IMG/VR virus record: IMGVR_UViG_3300012000_000039
Location: 1-44,066 of that record
Length of the DNA: 44,066 nt
DNA from: a virus
Direction: 5' to 3' (one strand)
The translations under genes and the position numbers were made by a program. Numbering within the stretch: the first letter of the stretch is position 1; every line of letters begins with the position of its first letter. A model generated the notes under the pieces. The model was given only the letters and a program-made list of their open reading frames with translations. It made no database searches and was not told the origin of the DNA. This document shows positions 20,071 through 26,219 of this stretch, piece by piece.

Positions 20071-20171
20071 GCGCCCGTGGTGTAACGGTTAGCACACGAG
20101 ACTTATATTCTCGGTCCGAAAGGATACAGGCTGATTACCTGTAAGTCGGGGTTCGATTCCCTGCGGGCGTA
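20071..20171 (+). tRNA. Unusual 101-nt tRNA, Ile-like (first anticodon arm UAU)
   Basis: The acceptor stem GCGCCCG pairs with CGGGCGT (G1-U72 wobble), discriminator A. The D arm is GTGT/GCAC and the T arm CGGGG TTCGATT CCCTG. The first anticodon-type arm is CGAGA CTTATAT TCTCG, with TAT at 34-36, which reads AUA (Ile). The region that should be a 4-5 nt variable loop has about 33 bases and holds two more hairpins: TCC GAAA GGA and ACAGG CTGATTA CCTGT. The latter also looks like an anticodon arm, with GAT (Ile) in its loop, and is followed by a normal-length AAGT. Which arm is used is unclear. Confidence 0.7.
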
Positions 20172-20635: not shown

Positions 20636-20990
20636 GGGGGCGTACTGGTATCGACTGGATGACGGAGGTTCAAGATTGCGTGTCGTGGTTGATCGGGTGG
20701 CCACGTAAAAACTCGATCGATGTTAGTCGGCAACACTCTTGCCATCGCTGCCTGAGTAAAATCAGCAGCCCGCGAACCAGCCCCAGTCGGAAGGGTTGTC
20801 TAGCGGTCGCCAAATCCGACTCGCCTAGCTCACTGCTCTGTCCTGCTAGGTTAAATTCGTTCAGAGCTGGCCTGTCCTGTTACCGCGCTGGTAGGGTGAC
20901 ACTCAGGTGAGACTAAATTCACCAGAAACACACGTGTAGAAGTCTGAACTGAAACATCTCAGGACGCGGGTTCGATTCCCGCCGCCTCCA
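20636..20990 (+). ncRNA. ssrA: tmRNA (transfer-messenger RNA)
   Basis: This one-piece tmRNA of 355 nt rescues stalled ribosomes. The 5' end GGGGGCG pairs with the 3' CGCCTCC, discriminator A at 20990. The third pair is G3-U70, the identity element for alanyl-tRNA synthetase. The T arm GCGGG TTCGATT CCCGC sits in the typical GGACGCGGGTTCGATTCCCGC context. The tag frame runs 20729-20755: GGC AAC ACT CTT GCC ATC GCT GCC TGA, encoding GNTLAIAA, so the added tag would be Ala plus GNTLAIAA. Pseudoknot stems such as AGTCGG/CCGACT and the GGTGA/TCACC hairpin follow the tag. No CCA is encoded. Confidence 0.93.
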
Positions 20991-21308
20991 TGAGGGCGCG
21001 ACTAGCGACGGCTAGAGATGCCCTCTTATACAACGGGGATTAAGGGGCAGCTTCCTGCTGCAGGTAACAGCATGGGGCCCCGGGAAACTAGGGTAGATTG
21101 GTATGCCCGAACCCAAAGACCGATATCCAGCGCCAGCTAGCATACCTGAGCGCACCGTTGTAAACCGGGTACTCCTTACCTTTGGCTATCGTTGCGGGAA
21201 ATCTCGCGGCGTGCTGCCGACGTGGGGGAGTTCCAAGAAGAGCTGCAGCTAGTCTTGGGTTATAGGGCCGGAACGTAAAGGGCCCGCCCGGTTTTTCTTT
21301 TTTTCTTT
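20991..21308 (+). ncRNA. Candidate large structured RNA with pseudoknot
   Basis: About 320 bases after the tmRNA have no gene but hold nested and crossing complementarities. A 5' hairpin GAGGGC/GCCCTC encloses CTAGC/GCTAG (20992-21025). TACAACGG (21029-21036) pairs with CCGTTGTA (21155-21162), GGTATGC (21100-21106) with GCATACC (21140-21146), and GCAGC/GCTGC forms a hairpin near 21047-21061. AACCCAAAGAC (21110-21120) matches GTCTTGGGTT (21252-21261) with one bulge and would cross the second and third helices as a pseudoknot. The element ends in a T-rich run (21292-21308), possibly a terminator. It contains the motif TAGGGTAGAT shared with the RNA at 24699. Confidence 0.5.
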
Positions 21309-21321
21309 GAAAGGAGTAGTT

Positions 21322-21552
21322 ATGGCTGATCCCGTGATTGATAGCGTGCGCATTGCCTCGGTTGGACCCGAGTTCATGTGTCACCACGAAGTGATCGTGA
21401 CGTTTGCCGGCAGCGAAGAGGAAAAGATGATCATCCGCTACTACCCTGATGAGATCTCGTTCCGCGAGGCTGAGCTGCTGGGTCTGACGGAGAAGCAGGC
21501 ATCTGACCTGTGGTTCCAAAAGGACAAGGCGTACCTGTTAAATGGCACCTAG
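21322..21552 (+). CDS. Small acidic protein of unknown function
   Basis: ATG 21322 has AAAGGAG nine bases upstream; the 21307 start lies on the ribosome site. The 76-residue product alternates beta strands (DSVRIASVGPE, HHEVIVTFAG, KMIIRYYPDEISF) with a C-terminal helix (REAELLGLTEKQASDLW). It is the first gene after the structured RNA region and runs into the 21563 gene. No function is apparent. Confidence 0.6.
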   Translation: MADPVIDSVRIASVGPEFMCHHEVIVTFAGSEEEKMIIRYYPDEISFREAELLGLTEKQASDLWFQKDKAYLLNGT

Positions 21553-21562
21553 GAGCAAACCC

Positions 21563-21811
21563 ATGAAAGTTGGAGATCGGATACAGTTGCTGGCGCCCAT
21601 GAAAAACCCGGATTCTGCGCGCATCCCGGTTGAAGAGGGCATGTCCGCAGGGCTTGAAGGCACGATCGTATATCTTTCGCTGGATGGTCCGGCGGACTGG
21701 CACCAGATCGGCGTCAGGTGGGACAACGGCCGGACGTTAAACATCCTGCCCAAGACGGATCGGTTTCGTGTTATTCCCGTAGAGGAGCAAAAGCATGCCG
21801 ACGCTGTTTAA
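21563..21811 (+). CDS. DUF4314-like small protein
   Basis: The start at 21563 has AGGAG at good spacing; the 21542 start overlaps the upstream stop. The 82-residue product reads MKVGDRIQLLAPM, then EGTIVYLSLDGPADWHQIGV, WDNGRTLNILP and DRFRVI. This order is the DUF4314 pattern, an SH3-like small barrel found in phages and bacteria. Its molecular role is not known. It overlaps the next gene by 17 bases. Confidence 0.75.
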   Translation: MKVGDRIQLLAPMKNPDSARIPVEEGMSAGLEGTIVYLSLDGPADWHQIGVRWDNGRTLNILPKTDRFRVIPVEEQKHADAV

Positions 21812-24501: not shown

Positions 24502-24673
24502 GACAGACGCCGAGGTTGAGTTAAAACAGCTTCGGCGCGCACTGTTAAATATTCGCAGGTCGATGGGCAACCTTGTTCAAGAAATGGACAAGCGCTGCCC
24601 GGGCAGTGAAGCCGAGGATATCGTCACGCGGTATGTGTGCTCTACGCAGCACTATATCGACACGTTGACGTAG
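24389..24673 (+). CDS. Small helical protein of unknown function
   Basis: The frame is open from ATG 24389; a GTG at 24410 (KWNNQWWDEVVH) is a possible alternative, and neither has a clear ribosome site. The product has about 94 residues, with a basic helix (VELKQLRRALLNIRRSMGNL) and a C-terminal CSTQHYIDTLT. It overlaps the previous gene by about 110 bases. Its stop lies between the -35 (24665-24670) and -10 (24687-24692) of a promoter for a structured RNA. Function unknown. Confidence 0.5.
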   Translation: MPASKTAVKWNNQWWDEVVHKKEALEPMVTTSAGTRYKTDAEVELKQLRRALLNIRRSMGNLVQEMDKRCPGSEAEDIVTRYVCSTQHYIDTLT

Positions 24674-24692
24674 CGCATTCGGGTGTTACAAT
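24665..24692 (+). promoter_or_regulatory. Sigma70-like promoter for the 24699 RNA
   Basis: TTGACG (24665-24670) and TACAAT (24687-24692) are spaced by 16 bases, close to the bacterial sigma70 consensus (TTGACA, TATAAT). A start seven bases downstream falls at about 24699, immediately before the first strand of the closing helix of the RNA. Confidence 0.75.
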
Positions 24693-24698
24693 ACCCGC

Positions 24699-25146
24699 GT
24701 TGGCACAAGAAACGCTCGTGAGAAGCATGTGTATGAACCTATCTCTAGGTGCATGCAGAGGGCTGAAACAACGAGCAGCTTTCGTGAAATGTTTTGCAGG
24801 AACCGTTAGGGTAGATGGCGGAATAGCGGGCAGCCCCGCCCGGGCCTCGTGGCTATTCCAAGTGACTCCACTCGACTACACTACATTATGGCTAGGGGAG
24901 CGGGTGGTGCAGGTGAAAGACCTGCCGGGCTAGTTTTAAATAACAAAGACGCGCGTCCGTACAACGTGCATCTGTCCGTGACCTAACAAACGGCTGCAGG
25001 GCGTAGGTGGGTAGTGATACCTGTCCTCACGAGCGTTTCTTGTGCTAACGAATCTTTTGGCGGCCGATTGGTCGCTTCGGCACGAGCGCGGATCTCGTTA
25101 ACTCCGTAAAGCCGGCAGGGATGCGCTTCCTTGCCGGCTTTTTTTA
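24699..25146 (+). ncRNA. Independently transcribed large structured RNA
   Basis: About 345 bases are enclosed by a perfect 20-bp helix: GCACAAGAAACGCTCGTGAG (24703-24722) pairs with its exact complement at 25026-25045. Inside, GGAATAGC (24820-24827) pairs with GCTATTCC (24852-24859), and GCAGGT/ACCTGC (24909-24925) forms a hairpin with loop GAAAG. No coding frame of note lies in the region. A sigma70-like promoter starts it and an 11-bp stem terminator ends it at 25145. It shares TAGGGTAGAT (24807-24816) with the RNA at 20991. Size and position beside tRNAs recall GOLLD/ROOL-type phage RNAs, but no match can be tested here. Confidence 0.75.
25111..25145 (+). terminator. Intrinsic terminator of the 24699 RNA
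   Basis: An 11-bp stem GCCGGCAGGGA/TCCTTGCCGGC (one G-U pair) with loop TGCGCT is followed by seven T (25139-25145). The next bases are AGCTAT, the shared terminator tail. Confidence 0.9.
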
Positions 25147-25162
25147 GCTATCCGCGCCATAG

Positions 25163-25376: not shown

Positions 25377-25601
25377 ATGGCTCAGCTTCGCAACAACCCG
25401 GCAGTGAAGGTCAATGTGGACGACTACCGTGACATGATGCTTGTGCTCGTGATCACGCCAGCTGATGTCGATATTGAACACTGCCTGCACTGCGGCCTTG
25501 AACTGGGCGTCTGCGAGTGCATCCCGGCAGAAGCGGCGATCCTGAACGACGACTTCGATAGCTATACGGTTATCGACGCCGAGTTCGAGAAGGTCGCCTA
25601 G
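25377..25601 (+). CDS. Small acidic protein with cysteine knuckle
   Basis: AAGGAGG lies upstream of ATG 25377. The 74-residue product has CLHCGLELGVCEC (residues about 42-54), four closely spaced cysteines able to bind zinc. The C-terminus is acidic (LNDDFDSYTVIDAEFEK). It is the only gene between promoter copy 2 and a large structured RNA. A regulatory or RNA-binding role is possible but not shown. Confidence 0.65.
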   Translation: MAQLRNNPAVKVNVDDYRDMMLVLVITPADVDIEHCLHCGLELGVCECIPAEAAILNDDFDSYTVIDAEFEKVA

Positions 25602-25610
25602 CGCGATTCA

Positions 25611-25641
25611 CCGCTGGCCGAGTGTGACGGCCAGCGGCGGT
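25611..25641 (+). other. Nine-base-pair hairpin after the 25377 gene
   Basis: CCGCTGGCC and GGCCAGCGG form a perfect 9-bp stem with loop GAGTGTGAC. No T-run follows, so it is more likely a processing or mRNA 3'-protection hairpin that separates the coding part from the structured RNA than a terminator. Confidence 0.6.
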
Positions 25642-26118
25642 TGATGGTTGGTCATAACGCTGTGGGAACCTGCCACGTTAATAAGTAGGGTGCCGATGAA
25701 ACTTCGGCCTGCTGTGGACGCCCGGTGTACTGCACAACACCACACGGAGGCGCCACGGCAGTAACACTCCGTAATAGTGTGTGCTGCGACCATGGCAACG
25801 TGGTCTGGGAACGCGCCTCTCATTGCGCGCGAATTCTCTGCCGTCGGTGTGCTGCTTTAGAGCGCCGACGCATTGGCTCTCCTGAAACGTCTTTATCGTC
25901 AGGAGCGCTACGTGGATAGTGTGTGTTACAGGTTGCCGTAAGCCGTTCCCAAGGAACGCTGCAGCCCGAGGACGCACCACAAAGCCCCTACGTGTCTAAT
26001 CCGCACACGGGGCTCGGACTGCCAAGTCCGCCACATCGGAGGCGTACGGCTGCAGGGTTGCTCCTGCAGTGCAGACGCCGCGGTCGGTCTTTCGGGACCA
26101 GCCGTGCAGGATTTTTTT
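25642..26118 (+). ncRNA. Candidate large structured RNA with switch-like terminator
   Basis: About 480 bases have no supported gene but contain many perfect hairpins: GCCGA/TCGGC (25692-25708), ACCA/TGGT near 25789, CGTCGG/CCGACG (about 25843-25870), CTCCTGA/TCAGGAG (25879-25905), GTTCC/GGAAC (25944-25956), AGCCCC-CGTGT/ACACG-GGGCT (about 25983-26014) and CGGACT/AGTCCG near 26015-26030. At the 3' end CTGCAGG/CCTGCAG (26050-26069) competes with TCCTGCA/TGCAGGA (26062-26111), which runs straight into seven T. Hairpin density far exceeds that of nearby coding DNA. It is probably expressed from promoter copy 2. No family is recognised. Confidence 0.6.
26062..26118 (+). terminator. Terminator with a competing upstream hairpin
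   Basis: TCCTGCA (26062-26068) pairs with TGCAGGA (26105-26111) just before T7 (26112-26118). The first strand can instead pair with CTGCAGG (26050-26056), so the two folds exclude each other. The tail continues AGCTAT as at the other terminators. Confidence 0.6.
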
Positions 26119-26219
26119 AGCTATTTGACGTAAGTAGCTGTCGCGCAAGCACTTAAGACAAGCAACTAATTCCTGTTTGCCGTAAGTCTTTGCGCATCAA
26201 TATGTTACGTCAAATAGCT
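26119..26219. repeat. 15-bp perfect inverted repeat flanking 71 bp
   Basis: AGCTATTTGACGTAA (26119-26133) and its exact reverse complement (26205-26219) flank 71 bases. The inner part can form GCAA/TTGC and AAGAC/GTCTT pairs. A further hairpin GTAAGA TTG TCTTAC follows at 26220-26234. It may be an operator, an RNA element or a remnant of a small mobile unit. No gene lies inside. Confidence 0.65.

Follow-up and report, generated by a model that had tools for sequence, protein, structure and literature searches.

The window, which is the whole 44,066-nucleotide stretch of DNA analyzed here, encodes on its plus strand an RNA unit of about 445 nt (24699-25141), whose body is closed by a 24-bp helix and which ends at an intrinsic terminator. 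Comparison of related sequences clearly points to a fold that has been preserved by evolution across eight phages, both in the interior closed by this helix (P1) and in the 3' module that follows. The RNA is probably functional, and we regard it as rather likely to be a phage-encoded, trans-acting, structural non-coding RNA, and the founding member of a new family. To our knowledge, few natural RNAs of such size and complexity are known. Among phage RNAs, GOLLD and ROOL have solved structures and an unknown function. A smaller new family, comprising eight full members plus one naturally occurring mini version, represents a clean experimental handle, in which the mini and full forms would show the ancestral core against the added domain. 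Curated RNA libraries, for their part, still miss large phage RNAs.

Structurally, the unit is organized as P1, an interior of about 300 nt, and a 3' module containing the hairpin P11, the pseudoknotted P12 and the terminator; all features described below lie on the plus strand. The 5' arm of P1 (24699-24722) is supported by inverted-repeat analysis and an eight-sequence alignment, and its pairing with the 3' arm (25026-25049) shows two-sided changes in 8 of the 24 pairs. Taken as 25 nt each (24698-24722 and 25026-25050), the arms are 96% complementary, and counted with one G-U the helix has 24 bp, 20 perfect plus 4. The 20-bp perfect closing helix reported in the initial annotation (24703-24722 with 25026-25045) is exact to the base, and exceeds every other perfect inverted repeat in the window whose arms lie up to 500 nt apart; the longest in 60 dinucleotide shuffles was 16. 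Folding of the window transcript lies 6.5 standard deviations below shuffles (z = -6.5), and this value, together with the compensatory changes given below, supports the proposal of a self-contained large structured RNA with inner hairpins. The unit is found in one copy per genome in whole-contig searches, and in the related contig G008 it is kept although both the upstream gene context and the promoter sequence differ. As had also been pointed out, tRNAs (17.9-20.5 kb) and a tmRNA (20636-20993) lie nearby, 3.7 kb upstream of the RNA in the window.

The window comes from IMG/VR, as a virus record of 44 kb. Related contigs of 30-205 kb were reached through its neighbour proteins, and BLAST and nhmmer located the RNA in them. 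Four separate conserved motifs, each scanned against IMG/VR, returned the same eight contigs every time, namely a near-identical copy of the window together with G001, G002, G003, G007, G008, G009 and G010. The latter are seven further distinct homologues, all IMG/VR contigs of one phage group, and the identity to the window RNA goes from 95.5% down to 83%. The carriers are uncultured phages of about 200 kb. No match was obtained in cultured phages and plasmids (blastn, word size 11, with two divergent members also tried), nor in bacterial and archaeal genomes to two exact conserved 20/21-mers. Pattern matches in L022, L024, L025, L038, L039 and L111-L114 were rejected as chance, being without the structure. 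Covariance models found no convincing paralogue of the 3' module or the interior elsewhere in the collected genomes, the weaker R1 matches in that search being terminator-like hairpins.

Covariation was counted on the eight-sequence alignment over 19 hand-drawn helices with 147 pairs. Over these pairs 99.1% of the cells are paired, compared with 37-42% in slid controls, and the covariation score is 0.247 (0.134 when shuffled, 0.035-0.071 when slid). Homologue collection with a covariation test, the check proposed in the initial annotation, gave two-sided changes at 29 of the 147 pairs in the eight sequences (slid controls 1-7, shuffled mean 14.6). A 20-bp helix devoid of compensatory changes had been named there as one refuting outcome, which did not occur. 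P1 alone has 8 two-sided pairs, followed by P9b (6), P3 (4), P6 (3) and P12 (3), and P2, P7, P9, P9a and the terminator contribute one each. For example, the P1 arm AAGAAACGCTCGTGAG becomes ATGGCATGCCTGTAAG in G001; this arm is altered in G001 and G007, and the opposite arm has co-varied. Many of the two-sided changes fall on the single G001/G007 branch (joined with full tree support), and all members belong to one phage clade, a shallow sample. Three standard pair types occur at P1 pair 12, P6 pair 124, P9b pairs 257 and 264, and P12 pair 398, and therefore more than one compensatory event took place. Unsupervised RNAalifold on four of the sequences gave the same main helices as those drawn by hand.

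The interior, as read from the alignment, opens with the P2/P2a hairpin (24725-24756; pairs 24725-24730/24751-24756 and 24737-24741/24746-24750), bearing the loop UCUC, and the P3 hairpin (24758-24783), in which 4 of 8 pairs show two-sided changes. P4 (24789-24799/24994-25004) and P5 (24805-24810/24982-24987) are nearly invariant, span 24789-25004, and are predicted to be the long-range helices holding the core. Then come the P6 hairpin (24820-24859; 24820-24827/24852-24859), with two-sided changes at 3 pairs, P7 (24868-24907; 24868-24874/24901-24907), with a conserved 26-nt internal stretch, the P8 hairpin (24909-24925), with the loop GAAAG, and P9/P9a/P9b (24926-24978), where P9b (24947-24956/24964-24973) has two-sided changes in 6 of 10 pairs. 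The P10 hairpin (25006-25025) carries an invariant GNRA loop, GUGA. Throughout the eight-sequence alignment, the loops are nearly invariant and the helices change fast, with 93 of the 125 unpaired interior columns being invariant. The P9b loop CCGUACA, containing a GUAC palindrome, is likewise invariant on a fast-evolving stem. Some of these loops suggest tertiary contacts. The L3 loop ACGAG can pair with CUCGU (24846-24850) in P6, a contact that is nearly invariant, and CCGU of L9b can pair with ACGG (24990-24993) beside P4. The L3-P6, L9b-J and pseudoknot contacts are put forward as proposals, because they are almost invariant and lie beyond the reach of covariation.

The 3' module begins with the P11 hairpin (25059-25076), as aligned, and continues with an H-type pseudoknot (25082-25107), in which P12 (25088-25092/25103-25107) presents a loop CUCGU (25094-25098) that can pair with ACGAG (25082-25086). 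The P12 stem is fast-evolving, with two-sided changes in 3 of 5 pairs, and its loop (CUCGUUAA) never changes. The compact pseudoknot, formed by L12 and the ACGAG just upstream, is formable in 9 of 9 sequences, and its stem is almost invariant. The intrinsic terminator (25108-25147), a 14-bp stem and a T run recognized by terminator scan and alignment, is present in all nine sequences (the eight full members and G011). The terminator of the initial annotation, given there an 11-bp stem, is confirmed, the stem having 14 pairs if G-U is counted. As a separate observation, TTTTTAGCTAT follows terminators five times in the window (5792, 25141, 26114, 26764 and 30608; 0.02 expected), and in relatives it belongs to a recurring intergenic module TTTTTAGCTATC...GCTAAATA...GGCATATC, which is perhaps a terminator with a phage promoter.

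A pattern search with the 3' module yielded one extra contig, G011 (157.5 kb; L040), which contains a natural mini form. Here P1 is a 16-bp hairpin with a short loop, followed by P11, the P12 pseudoknot and the terminator, without the interior of about 300 nt. The mini form sits at the orthologous place, between the same genes, and its 3' module is 88-91% identical to those of the full members. Because the distal P1 sequence of the mini form is unlike any of the others, it is not a full form collapsed in assembly. Searched with a covariance model covering part of the interior, G011 showed no copy elsewhere, nor did G004 and G005, and the RNA unit was not found in the latter two. In a tree of the helicase, the glycosyltransferase and one more protein, G011 is the sister lineage of the eight and G004 and G005 fall outside, an arrangement obtained from the three proteins together and not from the helicase by itself. 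The unit is hence built of modules: a small hairpin RNA carries a large apical domain, or has lost it. The simplest story would be a single gain of this domain on the branch leading to the eight; its loss in G011 would equally be one step, and the one mini form at hand is compatible with either direction.

The initial annotation saw no gene inside the unit, and the substitution patterns agree with it. Long frames are broken by indels across homologues, and a 33-codon interior ORF, open in 7 of 8, was rejected, as it has a frameshift in G008, no ATG in G009, and no codon-like pattern (36/32/38 changes at codon positions 1/2/3; 55 non-synonymous vs 18 synonymous). At the 5' end, a pattern match identifies a candidate sigma-70 promoter, TTGACG-N16-TACAAT (24665-24692). 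The annotated sequence is indeed present, and its match is not above chance; the match alone is no evidence, because a scan found 2 promoter-type sites in 6 kb against 3.2 expected. Of the 8 homologues, 7 retain the -10 box TANAAT with changed flanks, and the predicted +1 (about 24699) is the first base of P1. The -35 hexamer TTGAC(G/A) is kept in those same seven; it overlaps the final codons of the gene upstream (...DTLT*), and its conservation is confounded because the hexamer is the end of that gene. G008 differs, having TTGACC-N16-TAAACT. The window site is a plausible promoter of the RNA unit, with weaker backing than the initial annotation gave it. An inverted repeat around the -10 box, P0 (CGGGT/ACCCG, 24680-24697), is at most suggestive, with a single-sequence p of 0.015-0.4. 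Its arms vary among members (TGGAT/ATCCA, GGGA/TCCC, ACGG/CCGT), pairing is kept in most, and the repeat is missing in G011. Such a repeat with varying arms could mean a transcription start further upstream.

The initial annotation left two options, a new family or a distant member of GOLLD or ROOL, and advised a search with all Rfam models. The search was carried out by cmscan on the window and its relatives, at gathering and lax thresholds, and matched no family, giving chance hairpin matches only. The GOLLD model (RF02032) had no match at E<=10 in eight phage records, and none in cmscan. The ROOL model (RF03087) likewise had no match at E<=10 in the eight records; its control was also silent, so cmscan carries the ROOL test. 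The option of a distant member is unsupported by these empty direct searches, and that of a new family is supported because compensatory changes are present and no Rfam model matches. No published report of this RNA was found in the open-licence literature.

Among known large RNAs, GOLLD is, like the window RNA, phage-borne, large, structured and near tRNA genes, which here, with the tmRNA, are 3.7 kb off. Again like the window RNA, GOLLD combines a conserved 3' region with a remainder that is more dispensable (PMC12286853). The window RNA differs in having half the size of GOLLD, a single P1-closed body, and different helices. ROOL is also a large phage or prophage RNA near tRNAs, with kissing loops in its solved structure (PMC12286853), and the window RNA is shorter. 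Both GOLLD and ROOL are reported to be RNA-only cages of unknown function (PMC12286853). The RNAs raiA, HEARO, OLE and other large bacterial Rfam RNAs are similarly large and multi-branched, with conserved unpaired stretches; in contrast to them, the window RNA has no cmscan match and no HNH/IscB-like gene recognised beside it. By analogy, the RNA is best read as resembling in kind the ornate phage RNAs, being large, loop-rich, carried by phages and located near tRNA genes, and as a member of none of their families.

As a trans-acting RNA, the unit would be transcribed by the host RNA polymerase on its own, from a start just upstream of P1, and P1 with the 3' pseudoknot and terminator would protect and frame it. 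The interior would fold up compactly by way of L9b, the L3 loop and the GNRA loop L10, and would act as a scaffold during infection, either bound to a phage or host protein or alone. The GOLLD and ROOL cages are homo-oligomeric, a 14-mer and an 8-mer respectively, and the window RNA, if acting alone, could possibly form homo-oligomers in the same manner. A bolder extension, possible but on the unlikely side, is a new class of phage RNA machine, which would have grown when a tertiary-structured domain of about 300 nt entered the apical loop of a small hairpin/pseudoknot RNA linked to a terminator, and which would self-assemble (e.g., through the GUAC palindrome of P9b) or build an RNP in infection.

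Several rivals of the trans-acting structural RNA have to be weighed. Riboswitch-type leaders also present a closed body, then a terminator, then a gene, and the RNA would be a cis-acting leader (riboswitch-like or a protein-responsive attenuator) if its aptamer-like, P1-closed body sensed a signal and the terminator controlled read-through into p25377. This gene (25377-25601) encodes a 74-aa protein with four invariant Cys by sequence comparison; it is next downstream in homologous contigs, mostly at a distance of about 230 nt, and no copy was detected in G011, G004 or G005. We consider such a leader unlikely, since the near-perfect 24-bp P1 is too stable for a switching P1, no conserved strand competing with the terminator as an antiterminator was seen on inspection by eye, G001 and G008 have a wider gap before p25377, and G011, where the gene was not found, retains both the 3' module and the terminator. 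It is possible that p25377 is a partner of the RNA; their co-occurrence counts as a single event and a mere hint of partnership, because the eight form one clade. The structure model of the protein (pLDDT 45) is uninformative.

The 5' end bears on another rival, in which the RNA is a structured 3' UTR processed from the upstream operon and has no promoter of its own. Conservation of TANAAT in 7 of 8 despite changed flanks, and a predicted +1 exactly at the first base of P1, make this a decidedly unlikely origin. It would account for a -35 hexamer within the end of the upstream gene and a promoter match not above chance, and the repeat around the -10 with differing arms would be easier to explain if transcribed, yet this repeat signal is weak and missing in G011. 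The many invariant single-stranded stretches (93 of 125 columns) would suit a regulatory RNA of the antisense or sponge type, in which exposed loops pair with RNAs of the host or the phage, but they lie inside a large multi-branched architecture, and known base-pairing sRNAs are short and simply folded, so that this role is improbable. The presence or absence of the interior at one point of a conserved hairpin recalls a ribozyme or an intron-like mobile RNA element inserted in a hairpin RNA. That is most improbable: no Rfam ribozyme or intron model matches, and the interior occurs nowhere else in the collected genomes, nor in any other IMG/VR contig by four independent exact motifs.

The surroundings of the unit contain further structured elements. 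Directly after p25377, a second structured non-coding stretch (25602-26120, fold z -4.2) has a homologue only in G008 (about 89% identity) and no cultured-phage match. Its hairpins, compared with G008, show apparent compensatory changes, e.g., GACCAUGGCAACGUGGUC vs AGCUAUGGCAACGUAGCC, and the stretch may be another large RNA. The perfect inverted repeat ranking second in length in the window (15 bp, 26119-26133/26205-26219) is intergenic, in a stretch partly conserved in relatives (GACGTAA...TTACGTC). At the place of 25602-26120, a different structured block is found in L007 (6690-6890), L008 (6590-6900; z -5.0), G007 and G009. Rfam at gathering scores called no tRNA in the L007/L008 block, and the block in all four contigs has a tRNA-like T-arm, GGCUGGGUGCAAUUCCCAGC-GAGGU. 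In the tRNA region, the extent of the tmRNA gene is discordant between ARAGORN, giving a different (starred) tmRNA at 20899-21597, and Rfam, giving an ordinary one-piece tmRNA at 20636-20993. A 101-nt tRNA with a two-hairpin variable region (20071-20171; Rfam 53.9 bits) was missed by ARAGORN, and a similar 101-nt tRNA lies at 174-274 of L008.
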